Origin: Prosthecobacter sp.
GTDB taxonomy: Bacteria > Verrucomicrobiota > Verrucomicrobiia > Verrucomicrobiales > Verrucomicrobiaceae
DNA: 52,085 nucleotides
Assembly (NCBI RefSeq): GCF_014879935.1
Contig: NZ_JACSRD010000215.1
Span: 1 to 52,085, forward strand
Direction of reading: 5' to 3'
The notes beneath the pieces are model-generated. The model was not told the DNA's origin. It was given only the letters and a program-made list of their open reading frames with translations, and made no database searches. Every line of letters begins with the position of its first letter. Position 1 is the first letter of the stretch. The position numbers were made by a program, and so were the translations under genes. Positions 607 through 7,171 of the stretch are shown in pieces.

Positions 607-2550
607 ATGAACGACACCGAAAAAACCGGCCTCCACAAGCTCTCCACCACCACGCTCGTCATCGCGGCGCTCGGCGTGGTGTTTGGAGACATCGGCACCT
701 CGCCGATCTACACGCTGAAGGAGTGCTTCAGTCCGCACAGCCCGCATCACGTCGCCACCACACACGCGAATTTGCTCGGCGTCGTCTCGCTCGTGCTCTG
801 GTCGCTGATTTTGCTCATCTGCGTCAAATACCTCGTCTTCATCCTGCGGGCGGACAACAAAGGCGAAGGCGGCGTGCTCTCGCTGATGGCCCTGGCCTCA
901 CATGGCATGGGTGAAACGACGAAACGCCGCATCGTCATCGTGCTGCTCGGGCTGTTCGGAGCCGCGCTGCTGTTCGGCGATGGCATCATCACGCCCGCGA
1001 TCTCCGTTTTGAGCGCCGTGGAAGGCCCCAAAGATGGCGGGTTGCTCGGTGCGGCTCCCGCAGATGCTTTGGAGGCCGAAACGTGGAATCATCGCATGCA
1101 GTGGCTCATCATGGGCATCACCGCGATCATCCTCATCGTGCTCTTTTCGGTGCAGTTTCTCGGCACAGCCAAAGTAGGTCGCTTTTTTGGCCCGATCACC
1201 GGTTTGTGGTTCGTGAGCCTCGGCGTGCTCGGCGTGTCGCAACTCATTCACGGCCCCGAAATCCTCGCAGCCTTAAATCCGTGGCATGGATGGCACTTTT
1301 TGACCACTGGCGGTCACGCGGGCTTTGTCATCCTCGGCAGCGTTTTCCTCGCGGTGACCGGTGGTGAGGCCTTGTATGCCGACATGGGCCACTTCGGTGC
1401 CTCGCCGATCCGTCGCGGCTGGTTCTCGCTCGTGTTTCCGGCCCTCGCGCTCAATTACCTCGGCCAAGGCGCTCTTTTAATGAAGCAGCCGGAGCTCGCG
1501 CACGCGCCGTTTTTCCAAATGGCACCCGGATGGGCCACGTTGCCGCTCGTGCTGCTCGCCACCGCCGCCACCGTCATCGCCTCGCAAGCGCTCATCACCG
1601 GCACCTACTCGCTCACGCTCAGTGCCGTGCAGCTCGGCTACCTGCCGCGTTTGAGCATCCGCCACACCTCCGAGCACGCTCGCGGCCAGATCTACATCCC
1701 GCTCGTGAATTGGGTGCTCATGCTCGCCTGCCTCGCGCTCGTTGTCGCATTTCGCACCTCGTCGAATCTCGCCGCCGCATATGGCGTGGCCGTGACGATG
1801 ACCATGCTCATCACCACCATCCTCTTCTACTTTGCCGCGCGGCATCTGTGGAAGTGGAGCATGCTCAAAACGTTGCCGCTGTGCCTCGTGTTCGGTTTGA
1901 TCGAACTCGCTTTCCTCAGCGCAAACTTGGTAAAATTCTTCGATGGCGGCTGGTTCCCGCTCGCCGTCGGCGCAGGCATTTTCGTCGTCATGACCACCTG
2001 GGCCACCGGTCGCAAGCTCGTCCGAGCCTCCATGGAACGCAGCGCCATCTCGCAAGAGATGCTCATCCAAAGCCTCGCCAGCGGCAAAGTCATCCAAGTG
2101 CCCGGCACCGCGATTTTCATGACCAGCACCAGCGGACGCACGCCCGTGGCGTTGCTGCACAGCCTGAAACACTACCAAGCCATTCATCAGCGCGTCATCT
2201 TCATGACGCTGACCACCGAAGACGAGCCCTGGGTGCCACCGAGCCGTCGCGTCGAGGTCGAAAAGCTCGGCGACCATTTCTGGCGTGTCACCGGTCGCTT
2301 CGGCTTCATGCAAAAGCCCAACGTCCCGCGTTTGCTGCGTCAGTGCGCCGCGCACGACCTCGACGTCGATCCCGACAAGGCCACCTTCTTCCTCGGTCGC
2401 GAAATCATCATCCCCAGCAAAGCCCCCGGCATGGCCAAATGGCGCGAACACCTCTTCTCCTTCGCCAGCAAGCTCGCCCAGCAACCCGCAACGTATTTCC
2501 AGATTCCCGTTGGGCGGGTGATCGAACTGGGGCAACAAGTGGAGATATGA
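607..2550 (+). CDS. kup: Kup-family low-affinity potassium transporter
   Basis: A 647-aa inner-membrane K+ uptake protein, probably K+/H+ symport. The N-terminal signature GVVFGDIGTSPIYTLKE (first membrane segment) is diagnostic of Kup/HAK/KUP. About 12 hydrophobic segments fill residues 15-460, with the conserved GGEALYADMGHFG stretch near residue 255. A cytoplasmic C-terminal domain of about 180 residues follows, as usual for Kup. The length is normal. The gene has a candidate KdpE-like site just upstream and lies 2.9 kb from the matching two-component genes, with a foreign-looking cassette in between. No riboswitch leader is possible in the roughly 30 bases between the site and the ATG. 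Confidence 0.95.
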   Translation: MNDTEKTGLHKLSTTTLVIAALGVVFGDIGTSPIYTLKECFSPHSPHHVATTHANLLGVVSLVLWSLILLICVKYLVFILRADNKGEGGVLSLMALASHGMGETTKRRIVIVLLGLFGAALLFGDGIITPAISVLSAVEGPKDGGLLGAAPADALEAETWNHRMQWLIMGITAIILIVLFSVQFLGTAKVGRFFGPITGLWFVSLGVLGVSQLIHGPEILAALNPWHGWHFLTTGGHAGFVILGSVFLAVTGGEALYADMGHFGASPIRRGWFSLVFPALALNYLGQGALLMKQPELAHAPFFQMAPGWATLPLVLLATAATVIASQALITGTYSLTLSAVQLGYLPRLSIRHTSEHARGQIYIPLVNWVLMLACLALVVAFRTSSNLAAAYGVAVTMTMLITTILFYFAARHLWKWSMLKTLPLCLVFGLIELAFLSANLVKFFDGGWFPLAVGAGIFVVMTTWATGRKLVRASMERSAISQEMLIQSLASGKVIQVPGTAIFMTSTSGRTPVALLHSLKHYQAIHQRVIFMTLTTEDEPWVPPSRRVEVEKLGDHFWRVTGRFGFMQKPNVPRLLRQCAAHDLDVDPDKATFFLGREIIIPSKAPGMAKWREHLFSFASKLAQQPATYFQIPVGRVIELGQQVEI

Positions 2551-2634
2551 CCCACCAACAAGTTCACTTTAAGAAACTTAACTCTTGCTGAATACTACTC
2601 GCGAAAGAGTGCGTTTCCGTGGTAGAGTTTAATA

Positions 2635-3222
2635 ATGACGGGAAAAGTTCACCATCTAAGAGCTGCCAGCTTCAACACGCGCCGGAATTTGCCGGTGAAC
2701 GTGGCTCGGAAACGTGGAGAGGCGAACTTTCTCCGCGCCTTTGAAAAAACATATTTCGCCCGCCATTTGAATGGCGTGGCTGCTGGTGAATTTGCAATTG
2801 GGGGGTTTGGCGTCGCCGATTTGGTCTGGATCGCGTGGAAACCTCTGGCGGACGGTGAAGACTTCTCCGCAATCTCGCTGGAGAAGCAGCTTTCCAGGCG
2901 ACAACTGTTCGCGTTTGAAGCCAAGCTTAAGGACTGGCAGCGAGCGCTTCAGCAGGCATTCCGCTATCGTTATTTTGCGGACAAGTCCATCGTTGTGATG
3001 CCTGCTGCGAATGCCAAGGCCGCCTTGGCTCACCTCGAAACATTCAAAGAGATGCAAGTCGGTCTTTGGACATTCGACTCAGAGAAACAATTGATCAGGG
3101 AGCACTACACCCCCACTCGCATCAAGGCATTGAGTGCGTCCGCAAGGTCGAGGGCCATCAAGATGCTTTCGTCAAAGTTTGATCTCCGCAAGCTCTGCGA
3201 ATTTGCGGATACCTGTGTCTAA
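2635..3222 (+). CDS. PD-(D/E)XK nuclease-like protein of unknown function
   Basis: A 195-aa protein I cannot name. Residues 52-115 have the layout of a PD-(D/E)XK nuclease core: E52, then D62 in GVADLVWIAW, then E95-A-K97 in FEAKLKDW, followed by a QAFRYRYFADKSIVVM helix-strand. The EAKL.DW..AL.QA.RY pattern occurs in small restriction-endonuclease-like proteins that may cut or sense DNA. The C-terminus is basic and helical. G+C is visibly lower than in the flanks. Its last 51 bases overlap, tail to tail, the end of the gene at 3172-4386. It may be part of the kinase cassette or an independent passenger. The gene is convincing; its catalytic activity is inference. Confidence 0.7.
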   Translation: MTGKVHHLRAASFNTRRNLPVNVARKRGEANFLRAFEKTYFARHLNGVAAGEFAIGGFGVADLVWIAWKPLADGEDFSAISLEKQLSRRQLFAFEAKLKDWQRALQQAFRYRYFADKSIVVMPAANAKAALAHLETFKEMQVGLWTFDSEKQLIREHYTPTRIKALSASARSRAIKMLSSKFDLRKLCEFADTCV

Positions 3223-4386
3223 TGCCTCGAGATGGGCATTGTTCGACCTGCCCGAGAGGCGCAGGCCTGGCGCGAGATTGATCTGTGCATAGAGTTCTTC
3301 AGCGTCGAAAATGCGCTTCAGACACTCGGCAAGCCCGCCTTTGCCAATTGGCACTCCGAGACTTGAAATAGCCTCCCAGGTTTGAAGGACCTCTTCGATC
3401 TGGCCATCAGGCTCAGAAGCTCGCTCCTCGGAGTAAAAATCATCAGTCGGAAGGCCGCTGAGGACTTCTGGGAAGCGCATTCGGAGGCGCTCCAACTCAT
3501 CAAATCGAATTGAGTTAAGAAGCTTGGTCGAGAGATACCGTAGCACCGGACGCCTTCCACCTCCGGATGATGGAGCAAAACGATCCATCGAAAATACCTT
3601 CTGGCTATTAAACCAGCCGGTTGCCCCGGCTTCCCCTCCTGCGGCGCAAAGAAAGGGGGTCAAAATATCTGAATAGCCATTGATGACACGAAAGCCGTTC
3701 ACATGAAGTGCCTGATTGATGAACATCCAGCCGCTCAACGTCCGGTGATCAATGAGTTCTGGAGCAATTTCCGAAGTAGGGTTGTTCACCAGCAAATAGA
3801 AGCCGTCTGGCCGGGACTCCATCACAGTGAGTTCCTGGACAAACTCCTCGAGTTCCTCCTTCTCTTGGATGGCCTCGGCATCCATCGCCAGCGTGACAAA
3901 CAATGGCCGACGTCCTCCCTCTTTATCCCAGGCTTCTTTCGCGTGTCGGATGAAATTTCGGGAAATGAGTCCCTCAATCGAGTTAAATCGCCTGCGGATA
4001 ACGATGTTCGGCGAGATGATAGCCGTTACATCGAGTTGAGATTGGAACTGGAGGCAGTTCTGAATTTCAGTCTTCAGCTTTGGCTCACTTTCCAGGTAGC
4101 TGCGGCGTCTTGGCGTAAAATAAGCCTGATAATCTTCCCCCAGCAGCTTTCCCAACCTCCCATCGGGTTCATGGGCAACCATGCAGGCATAGTATTGGGG
4201 ATCAAACAGACGTTCGGCGGTAGGAGATTGCTCTTTGATCTCGCTTAGCGTTTCACCAATCCGCCTGGCATCGTAATCCTTTGGGCTGAGAATGGCCCCC
4301 TGGATCAGCCCGCGAGCCAAGCCCTGCAGCACCTTGTTTCGCTCACCGCTGCCAGCTTGGCTTCCGTGTTGTGCGTAAAGTTTCAT
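3172..4386 (-). CDS. Unrecognised TIM-barrel-like protein paired with a Ser/Thr kinase
   Basis: A 404-aa soluble protein that I do not recognise by name. It starts MKLYAQHG and shows a run of short hydrophobic strands ending in polar or loop residues, as in a (beta/alpha)8 barrel: KLYAQHG, GAILSPKD (30-37), VTAIISPNIVI (120-130), PLFVTLAMDA (161-170), GFYLLVNNP (195-203), GFRVINGYSD (231-240), GATGWF (254-259). A loop SSGGGRRPVLRYLS (273-286) is rich in Gly and Arg and could bind a phosphate or nucleic acid. There is no signal peptide or membrane segment. The ATG is two bases after the kinase stop, so the two are almost certainly co-transcribed and coupled. G+C is lower than in neighbouring genes. 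The function is unknown. Confidence 0.75.
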   Translation of the reverse strand: MKLYAQHGSQAGSGERNKVLQGLARGLIQGAILSPKDYDARRIGETLSEIKEQSPTAERLFDPQYYACMVAHEPDGRLGKLLGEDYQAYFTPRRRSYLESEPKLKTEIQNCLQFQSQLDVTAIISPNIVIRRRFNSIEGLISRNFIRHAKEAWDKEGGRRPLFVTLAMDAEAIQEKEELEEFVQELTVMESRPDGFYLLVNNPTSEIAPELIDHRTLSGWMFINQALHVNGFRVINGYSDILTPFLCAAGGEAGATGWFNSQKVFSMDRFAPSSGGGRRPVLRYLSTKLLNSIRFDELERLRMRFPEVLSGLPTDDFYSEERASEPDGQIEEVLQTWEAISSLGVPIGKGGLAECLKRIFDAEELYAQINLAPGLRLSGRSNNAHLEALDTGIRKFAELAEIKL

Positions 4387-4388
4387 GG

Positions 4389-5297
4389 TCAGGATTGGGT
4401 GACTTGAATGAGATGATCGAGATTCGCAGGCCGAAGAGCCGGCTTTTTCTTCAAAAGCTGGTCGATCAGATTGCAGAACTCCACAGAGTAAGTGGGACGC
4501 TCATCTCGCAAGTGTTTAGGCGCTGCGGTCAGTGCCCGCGAAATGGTGTGAATCTGGTCATCGCTGTCACGGGCGATTGGATGGCGTCCAGCCGCATATT
4601 CAAAGACAGTCAGTGCGATGGTATAGAGATCACTGCGGTAATCGAGACTAGCTCGGAAATTCGGATTGGCCATCTCTGGAGCCAGGTAGCGAAGCGTGCA
4701 GGGTGCTCCACCCACTGTGATTCCAGTTTCTTGCAAGCCAAAGGCAATGCCCAAATCTATCAGGACAAAGGGGCGGCTTTCATCATTCAGCTTGATGACA
4801 TTCGCAGGCTTGATGTCGCGATGAACGTATTGCCTCGACCAAAGCTCTTTAACCGCCCTCAAGAGACAATTCATCAGTTTCTTGGCTTCCTCCTCATCCG
4901 GCAGCACGCCTTGCCCTCGGATCAATTCACGCAGATCGGGGCCAGGCAGAAACTCTTCCGAATAGATCGCATAGTGTGACTGGCCGACCTGATAACCTTT
5001 GAGCGGCAGCGTGCCTAGTTTAACCATGTAAGGCGTGGCGCATTGATTCAGAATATTGACCTCGCGGCGAACCCGCTGGAGACATTCATCGCGATACCTT
5101 TCCTGGTCATTTGAGCCATCGGTCAGAGGAATGGCAATCACCTTGATGACCTCGCTTTTTCCGAGGAATTCAGCTCGATAGACTGTCTTGAAACCTCCTG
5201 ACCCGATTTCGACTATATTAGAAAAATCAGGAAACAGCGCGGCGAGGTTGGCAGGACTTAGTTTTGGCGGTGTAATCATGACTAAGACTGAACGCAT
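4389..5297 (-). CDS. Hanks-type Ser/Thr protein kinase, soluble
   Basis: A 302-aa protein made almost entirely of one eukaryotic-like kinase domain. Seen: glycine loop GSGGFKTVY (32-40), ATP-binding Lys in EVIKVIAI (K52), catalytic loop HRDIKPANV (159-167, Asp161), metal-binding DLG in place of DFG (181-183), APE (207-209) and the subdomain IX Asp in DYRSDLYTI (D223). All catalytic residues are present, so it should be active. There is no transmembrane or PASTA/sensor segment. An in-frame ATG at 5279 is an alternative start; neither has a clear ribosome binding site. It is the first gene of a two-gene unit with 3172-4386 and is divergent from the KdpD-like gene. Confidence 0.9.
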   Translation of the reverse strand: MRSVLVMITPPKLSPANLAALFPDFSNIVEIGSGGFKTVYRAEFLGKSEVIKVIAIPLTDGSNDQERYRDECLQRVRREVNILNQCATPYMVKLGTLPLKGYQVGQSHYAIYSEEFLPGPDLRELIRGQGVLPDEEEAKKLMNCLLRAVKELWSRQYVHRDIKPANVIKLNDESRPFVLIDLGIAFGLQETGITVGGAPCTLRYLAPEMANPNFRASLDYRSDLYTIALTVFEYAAGRHPIARDSDDQIHTISRALTAAPKHLRDERPTYSVEFCNLIDQLLKKKPALRPANLDHLIQVTQS

Positions 5298-5343
5298 TTT
5301 GGGACTTGAGAAGTGGAAAGTGTACTATCAAAAAGAGGAGTCG

Positions 5344-5388
5344 TTTACACCTTCTTAACGCGAAGCCGTGCCCTGTTTACTGGCGTGC
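5344..5388 (+). promoter_or_regulatory. Candidate KdpE-like operator upstream of the two-component operon
   Basis: Second copy of the 45-bp site described at 533-577. The heptamers are TTTACAC at 5344, TTAACGC at 5355 (+11) and TTTACTG at 5376 (+21), followed by GCGTGC. The TTCTTAACGC core is identical in both copies, while the ten bases after it are not. It ends 26 bases before the sensor kinase ATG at 5415, almost the same offset as at kup. Autoregulation by the KdpE-like protein is the simplest reading. It also lies upstream of the divergent kinase gene (start 5297), which might come under the same control. Confidence 0.6.
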
Positions 5389-5414
5389 CAGCATTTCACG
5401 CGCACGATAAACAC

Positions 5415-6509
5415 ATGAACGATCCATCCAAACCCCGGCAAGCCGTGCCAGTGCACGTCGTGGGCCAGTTTAGCTGGGGGCTGACGATTCTTTTTGTGCT
5501 CGCCTCGGTGTGCTGGGTGCTGCTGCCCTACACGGGTTCCACGTTTTCCGCGCTGGTGTTTTTGCTGGCCATCGTGCTCGCGGGCACGCGGTGGAATCGC
5601 GGGCCGGTGCTGGCGATGGGCGTGGTGAGTGCGCTGGTGTGGAATTTCATCTTCATCCCGCCGCGGTTCACGTTTCATATCGAGAAGCCGGAGGACGTGG
5701 TCATGTTTGCGATGTTCTTCGTTGTGGCGCTGAGCATGGGGCATCTCATCACGCAGCTTCGTGAGCGAGAATCGGCGCTGGAGCGCACGCATCGCGAGCA
5801 GGAGCAGCTTCAGGAGGCCAAACATCGCGCTGAGCTCGCGGCGGAGGCCGAGAGGTTGCATCGCACGCTGCTCGACAGTGTGTCGCACGAGCTCAAAACG
5901 CCCATCACGATCATCCGCACGGCCTTGGATGGCCTTGGCACCTCGAATCCCTTCGCGGCGGAGATCGACACGGCCACGCGGAGGCTTCAGCGCATTGTGG
6001 AGAACTTCTTGGAGATCACCCGTGTCGAATCCGATGCCGTGAAGCCTGCGCCGGACTGGTGCGAGTTCCTCGATGTGATCCACTCGGCCACCTCGCCCCT
6101 ACAGCGTGAGCTTCTCCCGCATCCGCTGCGCATCCTCGGCGCGGAAAACCTGCCGCTGCTGAAGCTCGACAGCCGATTGCTCTCCCAAGCGCTCGCGAAC
6201 GTGCTGCACAATGCCACGCAGCATGTGCCAGCGGGCAGCGAGATCGAAATCCATGCGACATTGACGCCGGAGAGCGCTTTGGAGATCCGCGTGCGCGATC
6301 ACGGGCCCGGTTTGCCGCCGGAGATGGAGGAGCGAGTGTTTGAGAAGTTCGCGCGGGCACCGGGAGCGCCTGCGGGCGGCACCGGACTCGGCCTGGCCAT
6401 CTCGCGCGGCTTGATGCGGGCGATGAAGGGTGACATCACTGTGCACAACCATCCGGAAGGCGGCGCGGAGTTTCGTTTTAGCCTGCCGGTCAAAACACGC
6501 CAGCCATGA
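5415..6509 (+). CDS. KdpD-like sensor histidine kinase lacking the KdpD N-terminal domains
   Basis: A 364-aa membrane sensor kinase. Residues 15-115 form the DUF4118-type block of four closely spaced membrane helices with the RWNRGP and FNFIFIPPRFTF-like loops of KdpD. Then come a coiled linker, the H-box SHELKTPITII (His158), the N-box ANVLHNATQH, and G boxes RDHGPGLPP and GGTGLGLAISRGL. Full KdpD is near 900 aa; the long cytosolic N-terminal KdpD and Usp domains are absent. An upstream in-frame ATG at 5313 would run through the operator-like site, so 5415 is preferred. It overlaps the regulator gene by four bases. Expected role: sensing K+ limitation or ionic strength. Confidence 0.88.
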   Translation: MNDPSKPRQAVPVHVVGQFSWGLTILFVLASVCWVLLPYTGSTFSALVFLLAIVLAGTRWNRGPVLAMGVVSALVWNFIFIPPRFTFHIEKPEDVVMFAMFFVVALSMGHLITQLRERESALERTHREQEQLQEAKHRAELAAEAERLHRTLLDSVSHELKTPITIIRTALDGLGTSNPFAAEIDTATRRLQRIVENFLEITRVESDAVKPAPDWCEFLDVIHSATSPLQRELLPHPLRILGAENLPLLKLDSRLLSQALANVLHNATQHVPAGSEIEIHATLTPESALEIRVRDHGPGLPPEMEERVFEKFARAPGAPAGGTGLGLAISRGLMRAMKGDITVHNHPEGGAEFRFSLPVKTRQP

Positions 6510-7171
6510 GCAAAGCCCTCATCATCGACGACGAGCAGCAGATGCGCCGACTGCTGCGCATGCTGCTGGAGTCCCGCGGCTACGAGGTCTGCGAGGCCGA
6601 TGAAGGCCAGCGCGGGCTTCAAGAGGCCGCGTTTCATCGCCCGGATGTCGTGTTGCTCGATCTCGGCCTGCCGGGTCTCGGCGGCCTGGAGGTGCTGAAA
6701 CGGCTGCGCGAGTGGAGTGACGTGCCGGTGCTCATTTTGAGTGTCCGCGATCAAGAGGCCACAAAGGTCCAGGCGCTCGAAATCGGTGCCGATGACTATG
6801 TGACGAAGCCTTTTGGCAGCGCGGAGCTGCTGGCGCGGCTCGATGTCATCCAGCGGCGACGCGGACCTCGTCACACGCCCGAAATCATCGCCGGACCGCT
6901 CAAAGTCGATCTGTTGCATCATGAGGCCCAAATCGCAGAAGAAGCCCTCAAACTCACTCCGACCGAGTTTGCGCTGCTCAAAGTGCTCACCGAGCACGCG
7001 GGCCGGATTGTGACTCAAAACCAGATCGTGAAGCAAGTCTGGCCCGGCCAGTCCAGCGATCCGAGTGAGGGCCTGCGGGTCCACATCAATCACCTCCGCA
7101 AAAAACTCGGCGAGCGCGGCGTGCGTATCGTGAACGAGCCCGGCATTGGCTATCGGCTGGAGGTGGAGTGA
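6506..7171 (+). CDS. kdpE: KdpE-like response regulator (OmpR/PhoB family)
   Basis: A 221-aa regulator. The receiver domain has the acidic pair in IIDDEQQ, phospho-acceptor Asp52 in VVLLDLGLPG and Lys101 in DDYVTKPFG. The C-terminal winged helix has LTPTEFALLKVL, the recognition region SEGLRVHINHLRKKL and the wing GIGYRLEVE. The receiver sequence (GLPGLGGLEVLKRLREWSDVPVLILS) is closest to KdpE. Its ATG overlaps the sensor stop (ATGA), so the pair is one operon. The duplicated site before kup and before this operon suggests its targets. No kdpFABC genes are in view, so kup may be its main local target. Confidence 0.88.
   Translation: MSKALIIDDEQQMRRLLRMLLESRGYEVCEADEGQRGLQEAAFHRPDVVLLDLGLPGLGGLEVLKRLREWSDVPVLILSVRDQEATKVQALEIGADDYVTKPFGSAELLARLDVIQRRRGPRHTPEIIAGPLKVDLLHHEAQIAEEALKLTPTEFALLKVLTEHAGRIVTQNQIVKQVWPGQSSDPSEGLRVHINHLRKKLGERGVRIVNEPGIGYRLEVE

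Follow-up and report, generated by a model that had tools for sequence, protein, structure and literature searches.

The question raised by this locus is what three adjoining genes are doing between a potassium transporter gene and the two-component genes that appear to regulate it. The locus lies in a stretch of 52,085 nucleotides from Prosthecobacter sp. (contig NZ_JACSRD010000215.1), which is called the window here. The three genes encode a Hanks-type Ser/Thr kinase (kin302), a TIM-barrel protein with a predicted fold like that of tRNA-guanine transglycosylases (TGTs), termed p404, and a predicted nuclease of the PD-(D/E)XK type (nuc195). Together they recur at 27 non-redundant loci, the window counted, which belong to six bacterial phyla and, in one case, to the plasmid of a haloarchaeon. 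Judged from context alone, an antiviral role for this trio is probable. There is roughly an even chance that the trio is a mobile three-protein antiviral module with a division of labour, in which specificity comes from p404, cutting from the nuclease and switching from the kinase. Loci other than the window are referred to by L numbers and genomes by G numbers. The module comprises the following features.

2635..3222, + strand: nuc195, predicted PD-(D/E)XK-type nuclease, 195 aa (open reading frame (ORF), invariant core, AlphaFold2 model, neighbours of restriction-endonuclease fold)
3172..4386, - strand: p404, predicted TGT-like TIM-barrel protein, 404 aa (ORF, model, TGT structural neighbours, conservation)
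4389..5297, - strand: kin302, Hanks-type Ser/Thr kinase, 302 aa (ORF, Pkinase match, invariant catalytic residues)
3172..3222, no strand: tail-to-tail overlap of nuc195 and p404, 51 bp (ORF coordinates, trio geometry)

A conserved trio of genes

The ORFs, the two bases between the kinase stop and the p404 start, and the convergent overlap are all as the sequence-only reading, an earlier annotation made from the letters of the DNA, had given them; the overlap measures 51 bp. The start of kin302 may be Met7, near position 5279, which is nearer to where several homologues begin. The same reading had proposed a unit of two or three genes. Three is the number that stands, since the nuclease is included in the conserved trios; the kinase and 404-aa genes co-occur across genomes in 27 trios, and are neither unlinked housekeeping families nor a pair found only once.

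A pattern scan with one genome per species yielded seven p404 relatives, in Planctomycetota, Chloroflexi, Verrucomicrobia, Acidobacteria and Nitrospirota. Among the first eight loci, these seven and one from the window's own phylum, a kinase and a nuclease stood beside p404 in every case, with the nuclease convergent and overlapping in all eight. Larger regions gave the trio in eight of eight (in L044 a contig end truncates the kinase; L048 is a longer stretch of one of the first eight loci), and later regions in nine of 13, the exceptions being L111-L113 and the fragment L117; L118 enlarges L007. Loci seen twice were counted once (L002 = L048, L021 = L047, L007 = L118). A trio occurs in a betaproteobacterium, on plasmid pPNAP03 of Polaromonas naphthalenivorans CJ2, and the plasmid of the haloarchaeon Natribaculum breve carries a divergent trio with a different gene order. 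The planctomycete genome G288 has two divergent trios (L005, L047), one of them adjoining BREX genes.

Three gene orders were found: kinase and p404 with a convergent nuclease (12 trios), nuclease-kinase-p404 in one direction (12) and kinase-p404-nuclease in one direction (3). The convergent order keeps a p404/nuclease overlap of 9-75 bp in all 12 of its trios, and forms one branch of 12 rows on the p404 tree (support 100/99). Distance matrices of the three proteins are correlated (Mantel r 0.83, 0.83 and 0.94, p 0.0001; 26 trios, L044 left out). The trio genes are under purifying selection in the one measurable pair, L048/L008, from different genomes and 94-95% identical, with ratios of nonsynonymous to synonymous substitution rates (dN/dS) of 0.13 for the nuclease, 0.05 for p404 and 0.09 for the kinase; dS exceeded 1 for L010/L011 and was not computable for L041/L042, and both pairs were left out.

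The spread of p404 is very patchy. It is present in 2 of 48 genomes of the genus (the window's and G548), 7 of 246 Planctomycetota, 4 of 301 Chloroflexota and 2 of 198 Nitrospirota, while searches matched 4 of 288 genomes in the window's own phylum (the window, one trio, one fragment and one match judged to be chance) and 8 of 247 Acidobacteriota, three of these being barrels without partners; all these figures are lower bounds, as the trio of L163 was missed by the p404 search and recovered by the nuclease search. The chance match, L004 (E 3.5e-4), lies within a type IIG-like ORF. The host genome of the window (7.7 Mb, 286 contigs) holds a single p404. A nuclease profile matched 18 of the 246 Planctomycetota genomes. 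At the top of its list, with E 1.5e-35 or lower, stand the eight p404 places of that phylum, an agreement that is partly by construction, those nucleases being rows of the profile; the next matches are none better than 9.4e-22, and include one more complete trio (L163) and barrels beside a nuclease (L162, L164-L166).

The trio was probably acquired horizontally, for the p404 tree mixes phyla and close relatives lack the trio at the same junction. The eight rows of Planctomycetota require 7 changes, the five of Acidobacteriota 5 and the four of Chloroflexota 4, which is no fewer than the mean for shuffled labels. The five Verrucomicrobiota rows cluster, with 2 changes, and the two Nitrospirota fall together. 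For all phylum labels taken together the number of changes is 14, where shuffling gives a mean of 16.0; some long branches of this tree are uncertain. Trios are plasmid-borne in L012 and L161, and by eye L115 appears prophage-like while L116 and L118 have recombinases. The appearance of L115 is the sole sign of phage carriage: of 32 pattern-matched stretches of viral contigs none was confirmed, and phage records gave no match to p404 of the window or of L116.

Predicted activities of the three proteins

Only the kinase was recognised among the three proteins by Pfam, PADLOC and NCBIfam. The Pkinase match covers residues 27-291 of kin302 (E 2.3e-29), and the related PK_Tyr_Ser-Thr is the only other family above cut-off. 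K52, E79, H159-R160-D161, D181-L-G and A206-P-E are invariant in nine of nine members, giving a complete catalytic core, as expected of the complete Hanks kinase described earlier. Matches of kin302 to the PADLOC models PD-T4-6 (4.6e-33) and mad6 (1.2e-29), which carry no cut-off, and to NCBIfam PglW, far below the PglW cut-off, look like general kinase-domain matches.

The E-x-K core that the sequence-only reading had seen in the 195-aa protein is conserved, with E29, G59, D62, E95, K97 and Q107, as well as F114 and G143, invariant in 17 family members. An AlphaFold2 model of nuc195 (mean predicted local distance difference test score (pLDDT) 81) has as structural neighbours 3dnx (Z 11.3), PaqCI (9.5), XisH (9.2, at 2.4 Å over 109 residues), NucS (8.6) and Can2 (7.9). 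No Pfam or PADLOC family matched nuc195 at E up to 1. With an E...D...E-x-K core on a restriction-endonuclease fold, nuc195 is predicted to be a nuclease of the PD-(D/E)XK type. Several divergent nuclease members carry an insert between D62 and E-x-K with weak winged helix-turn-helix (wHTH) matches in Pfam, which suggests DNA binding by these members. A weak match to the sce7726 profile appeared in 6 of the 17 members (best 2.7e-4); membership of the window's nuc195 in that family was ruled out, at 13 bits against a cut-off of 70.

The 404-aa protein, assigned to no family on first reading, matched none of Pfam, PADLOC or NCBIfam at E up to 1. The barrel-like strands noticed in its sequence are borne out by an AlphaFold2 model from nine sequences (mean pLDDT 81, predicted template modelling score (pTM) 0.86), for which all 50 VIA matches listed are TGTs, so that p404 is predicted to have a TIM-barrel fold of the TGT type. 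The top match is archaeosine TGT with tRNA (1j2b; Z 20.8, 3.3 Å over 300 residues, 12% identity). Most of the 27 Foldseek matches with E no higher than 0.001 are TGTs, and a TGT holds second place at a TM of about 0.5.

The tRNA-bound structure raises the possibility of an RNA-targeting module, in which the TGT-like barrel would bind tRNA anticodon stems, like a true TGT, and the nuclease would cut tRNA. In its favour, 1j2b is the best-scoring structure. Against it, several nucleases have the insert with weak wHTH matches, the folds nearest to that of nuc195 include those of restriction enzymes and of NucS, a DNA nuclease, and PD-(D/E)XK enzymes mostly cut DNA. An RNA target is considered very unlikely.

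Conservation within p404 indicates which features of a TGT may have been kept. D62, Q6, P126, G257 and F265 are invariant in all 25 members, and Q64 (24 of 25), P63 (23 of 25) and Y66 (23 of 25) are nearly so, which defines a D62-P63-Q64-x-Y66 motif. D62-x-x-x-Y66 follows strand 3, and its TGT counterpart is presumably D102-S-G-G-Y106 (Z. mobilis TGT numbering). In TGTs the base-binding Asp and Tyr lie after strand 3, and the nucleophilic Asp lies on strand 8. At column 255, the TGT nucleophile position by a non-significant alignment, all 25 p404 members have a residue from the set A, C, G and T; the following column shows T, S, V, L, C or A in the 24 members listed out of 25. CxCxxC...H is the TGT zinc site motif. 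CxCxxC is found in none of the 25 p404 members, and CxCxxC...H in five of six sister barrels and 15 of 16 TGTs (L168-L183); the sister barrels are linked to p404 by hhalign (E 7e-13, or 1e-15 with more rows). A normal TGT is co-present in 14 of 16 genomes bearing a trio or variant, and also in the window's host. On this reading p404 has a TGT-like fold, may bind a base and would be incapable of exchange by the TGT mechanism.

A Dpd-like modification-restriction system is a further alternative, with p404 inserting 7-deazaguanine in host DNA as a mark of self and the nuclease cutting unmarked DNA. The TGT fold, the nuclease partner and the restriction-modification (R-M) neighbourhoods described below are all compatible with such a system. 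The small residues in every p404 member at the nucleophile position, albeit by a weak alignment, do not fit, and no genes for 7-deazaguanine synthesis were seen by eye in the flanks. This alternative is regarded as extremely doubtful.

Variant loci

At L162 (1399-3496; as L146, to 3553), a barrel frame runs on from a kinase C-lobe with no visible N-lobe and an adjacent nuclease; this may be a fusion or a decayed locus. L164 (1-2271), L165 (5549-8638) and L166 (5635-8168) each have a small E-x-K nuclease and a TGT-like barrel, and the stretch read shows no recognisable kinase. Eye and position identified the barrels of L164 and L165, and that of L166 also gave a weak p404 match (3e-4). Those of L165 and L166 have CxCxxC, and that of L164 is cut by a contig end. 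There is one more upstream gene at each of these loci, and L164 and L165 also have, by eye, a SocA/Panacea-like gene. Because L164-L166 pair nuclease and barrel without a recognised kinase, the kinase may be a controller that certain lineages have for a broader core of nuclease and barrel.

TGT-like barrels with no kinase or nuclease nearby were seen at L111 (2908-4170), L112 (4996-6195) and L113 (about 396-1583); they are related to p404 (hhalign E 7e-13) and have CxCxxC in two of three cases. A 151-aa p404 fragment at L003/L117 (6711-7166), without kinase or nuclease and by eye near an HsdR-like gene, is probably a decayed trio. The weaker nuclease-profile matches L151, L152 and L158-L160 were set aside, with no recognised barrel or kinase in the stretch read.

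Defence neighbourhoods and proposed role

The surroundings of 24 trios were read (L163 and L161 are outside these 24), and recognised defence genes of R-M, bacteriophage exclusion (BREX) or cyclic oligonucleotide-based antiphage signalling (CBASS) systems lie beside 12 of them. Ten of the 12 were confirmed by PADLOC, with one protein each; L008 and L048 were assigned by reading, consistent with five REase_I matches. Type I R-M genes adjoin the trio in L008, L009, L041, L045, L048 and L108 (HsdR in L045 and L108, HsdS in L041). A type III methylase is found in L010, a type II methylase in L110, type IIG R-M in L012 and L118, BREX PglZ and BrxL in L005, and in L044 a CBASS cyclase accompanied by a patatin-like gene. 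The neighbours of L163 include, by eye, large helicase-like and methylase-like genes. Next to the trio of L106, a HipA-like kinase and a DUF1828/1829-like partner (2051-3810) were likewise seen by eye. This pair resembles DS-6 (HipA-like kinase, DUF3037, DUF1829) as it appears in the available part of PMC13092281.

In L009 and L048 the trio lies, by eye, between hsdS-like and hsdR genes (the HsdR of L009 was confirmed with PADLOC), and in L008, by reading, between hsdM-like and hsdR genes. Placement inside a type I R-M operon was seen at these three loci and is not general. It brings to mind a guard or toxin-antitoxin system like PrrC, in which the kinase would be the toxin, as in KKP and HipA, held by p404 and the nuclease and freed when a phage disables restriction, whereupon growth of the infected cell would stop. 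The placement in L009 and L048 is like that of PrrC, which, according to the available part of PMC2610378, is kept silent by the type Ic R-M enzyme linked to it. KKP provides a precedent for a kinase-based defence toxin in the accessible part of PMC11341870, and the kinase core is intact in nine of nine aligned members. Against a guard stand the nuclease core, whose invariance in 17 members fits an enzyme rather than an antitoxin, the nuclease and barrel of L164-L166 without a recognised kinase, and the 12 of 24 trios with no recognised defence system adjacent. Such a guard is possible, although unlikely.

The sequence-only reading had spoken of a stress or defence unit, of which the defence setting stood in half of the loci read, the other half having no recognised defence gene. 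This other half speaks for the alternative that the trio is not for defence at all, but a stress or housekeeping regulator hitch-hiking in variable regions. The very patchy spread (2 of 48 genomes in the genus), the nesting in R-M operons and the carriage on plasmids argue otherwise, and a non-defence role is thought very unlikely indeed.

The preferred explanation is the antiviral module with its division of labour. In this module specificity would come from p404, which would dock on a purine base or site of the invading nucleic acid. Cutting of this nucleic acid, presumably DNA in vivo, would be the task of the PD-(D/E)XK protein as effector. The Hanks kinase would act on its neighbours as a switch, either holding p404 and the nuclease off or turning them on by phosphorylation. 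In favour of this explanation are the linkage and joint divergence of the three genes, the purifying selection in L048/L008, the signs of mobility, the recognised defence genes at half of the loci read, the predicted folds and the insert with weak wHTH matches in several nucleases. With PADLOC at a limit of E 1e-10, moreover, 319 models were matched by 105 flanking ORFs (at least 230 aa) and 5, each by one or two proteins, by 96 control ORFs from 18 stretches of the same genomes.

Several results weigh against this explanation. The 12 trios mentioned above have no recognised defence system within the stretch read, and in the window the trio has kup and a two-component pair as its nearest neighbours. 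In the PADLOC comparison one protein matches many models, so that 319 overstates gene number and 12 of 24 loci is the fairer figure, and the control stretches are contig starts or arbitrary places, not other variable regions. With regard to structure, the nuc195 model had no Foldseek match at E 0.001 or lower, and Foldseek puts a dehydroquinase first for the p404 model. The VIA list for p404 consists of the 50 best rows, all TGT, and the Z of the best non-TGT barrel lies outside it. With regard to sequence, hhalign of p404 with TGTs gave E 0.03 or worse, with nothing significant against 10 Verrucomicrobial TGTs or a broader set, or with the zinc-bearing sister group brought in. PDB sequence searches with p404 members A1, A4 and A9 found no TGT or DpdA chain at E up to 10, and PF01702 (TGT) was unmatched in 17 of 17 p404 members at E up to 1 in Pfam. 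Rows for ribosomal L39 in the PDB searches were taken as chance. CxCxxC is also absent from 12 of 12 Verrucomicrobial TGTs (L029-L040), hence is not diagnostic; because these TGTs lack the pattern, its absence from p404 does not exclude membership of the TGTs.

In a more specific version of the module, p404 would be a retired TGT serving as the reader of 7-deazaguanine, or of some other altered guanine, in phage DNA; cutting would fall to the nuclease, and the kinase would arm the complex. Here p404 would recognise the altered guanine without exchange and pass the site to the nuclease. The module might then stand beside R-M systems because modified phage bases defeat R-M, and the nuclease-paired barrels of L164-L166 would belong to the same class. 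That there is immunity to phage DNA with 7-deazaguanine is shown by GrwAB in the available part of PMC12137116. In this specific form, the proposal is quite unlikely to be correct.

If the trio is immune in function, nuclease defence gains a TGT-like component and a phosphorylation switch, and phages that escape restriction through modified guanines may come within its reach. The occurrence of the trio in a named strain, P. naphthalenivorans CJ2 (pPNAP03), makes the idea testable.

The locus in the window

The surroundings of the module in the window comprise three further features.

2551..5414 (approximate), no strand: extra interval of lower G+C between kup and the histidine-kinase gene (G+C, comparison with relatives)
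607..2550, + strand: kup, K+ transporter, left flank, outside the module (ORF, K_trans 2.5e-176)
5313..7171, + strand: KdpDE-like histidine kinase and response regulator, right flank, outside the module (ORF, domain matches)

The trio lies between kup and its apparent regulators and is lower in G+C than the flanks (0.52-0.53 within the three-gene interval, 0.61-0.64 outside), both as originally read. The left flank encodes Kup (K_trans 2.5e-176), and the right flank a DUF4118-bearing histidine kinase together with a response regulator (Pfam); from their domains this pair appears to be KdpDE-like. Comparison with relatives places the probable start of the histidine kinase at 5415. A scan of the interval for promoters and terminators found none exceeding shuffled sequence.

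Twenty-four same-genus kup orthologues besides that of the window (L050-L073, 81-96% identical) were compared, and in eight the histidine kinase follows directly after kup. The gap is 3-7 bp in L052, L057-L061 and L073, and about 150 bp in L072, where it holds an operator-like motif. In L052, whose kup is 94% identical to that of the window, 7 bp separate the kup stop from the histidine-kinase start and there is no trio. Relatives with a trio-less junction imply either insertion of the trio here or its loss from around the junction, and the low G+C and the rarity of the trio speak for insertion. The acquired nature proposed by the sequence-only reading thus agrees with the trio-less junction of close relatives, the low G+C and the mixing of phyla on the p404 tree.

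Other relatives listed have kdp genes or other small inserts between kup and the histidine kinase, including by eye an unknown ORF (L079), a RAYT-like transposase (L083) and a PIN-like gene (L089). The junction has the look of a hot spot for insertions within a reduced kdp locus. A TTCTTAACG motif adjoins the histidine-kinase side of the interval. Sequences of the TTCTTAACG type lie at 540-600 of the window, upstream of kup, and at 5355-5400, upstream of the histidine kinase, and are possibly a shared operator for both genes. Because the motif also occurs upstream of kup and in the L072 junction, the part of the interval carrying TTCTTAACG may be ancestral.

Comparison with known systems

The predicted fold of p404 is like that of bacterial and archaeosine TGTs, with D-x-x-x-Y after strand 3 apparently common to both (D62/Y66 in p404, D102/Y106 in Z. 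mobilis TGT). It differs in having no significant sequence match to TGTs, small residues apparently at the nucleophile position and no CxCxxC. The Dpd 7-deazaguanine system likewise has a TGT-fold protein together with nuclease genes, as far as the available part of PMC12839542 goes, but the trio differs in a p404 apparently lacking the nucleophile and in the presence of a kinase. No dpd or preQ0 genes, including DpdB and DpdC, were seen by eye in the trio flanks, where the PADLOC matches bearing on Dpd are those of 25 listed families out of 319. In BRC systems, TGT homologues occur in a defence operon with HerA/FtsK, GNAT and BREX parts; this gene set differs from that of the trio, and the available part of PMC12839542 describes no trio of Hanks kinase, TGT and nuclease.

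Kinases are used for defence by PD-T4-6, MADS (Mad6), PglW and KKP, and kin302 matches the PD-T4-6 and mad6 models. PD-T4-6 is a single kinase acting without partners, whereas kin302 and its relatives adjoin two partners in 27 places. To our knowledge, no TGT-like barrel with a small PD-(D/E)XK partner belongs to the PD-T4-6, Mad6, PglW or KKP systems. The sce7726 and XisH families are small proteins of restriction-endonuclease fold; nuc195 is alike in fold and is not an sce7726 member. PrrC and RloC resemble the trio as accessory genes at type I R-M loci, judging from the available part of PMC2610378, but are single-gene tRNases of ATPase type, whereas the trio consists of three different proteins. 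GrwAB, the reported system against 7-deazaguanine phages (available part of PMC12137116), has parts unrelated to those of the trio.

No description of the trio was seen among the matches listed from open-licence PMC full text, nor in the available parts of PMC12839542, CMoRE (PMC12923530) and DefensePredictor (PMC13092281). p404 and nuc195 match no PADLOC model at E up to 1 (PADLOC-DB 2.0.0, 2023). We know of no system composed of a kinase, a TGT-like barrel and a PD-(D/E)XK protein. Two of the three proteins of the trio lie outside the families of the libraries searched, yet the trio has been kept across bacteria and an archaeon.

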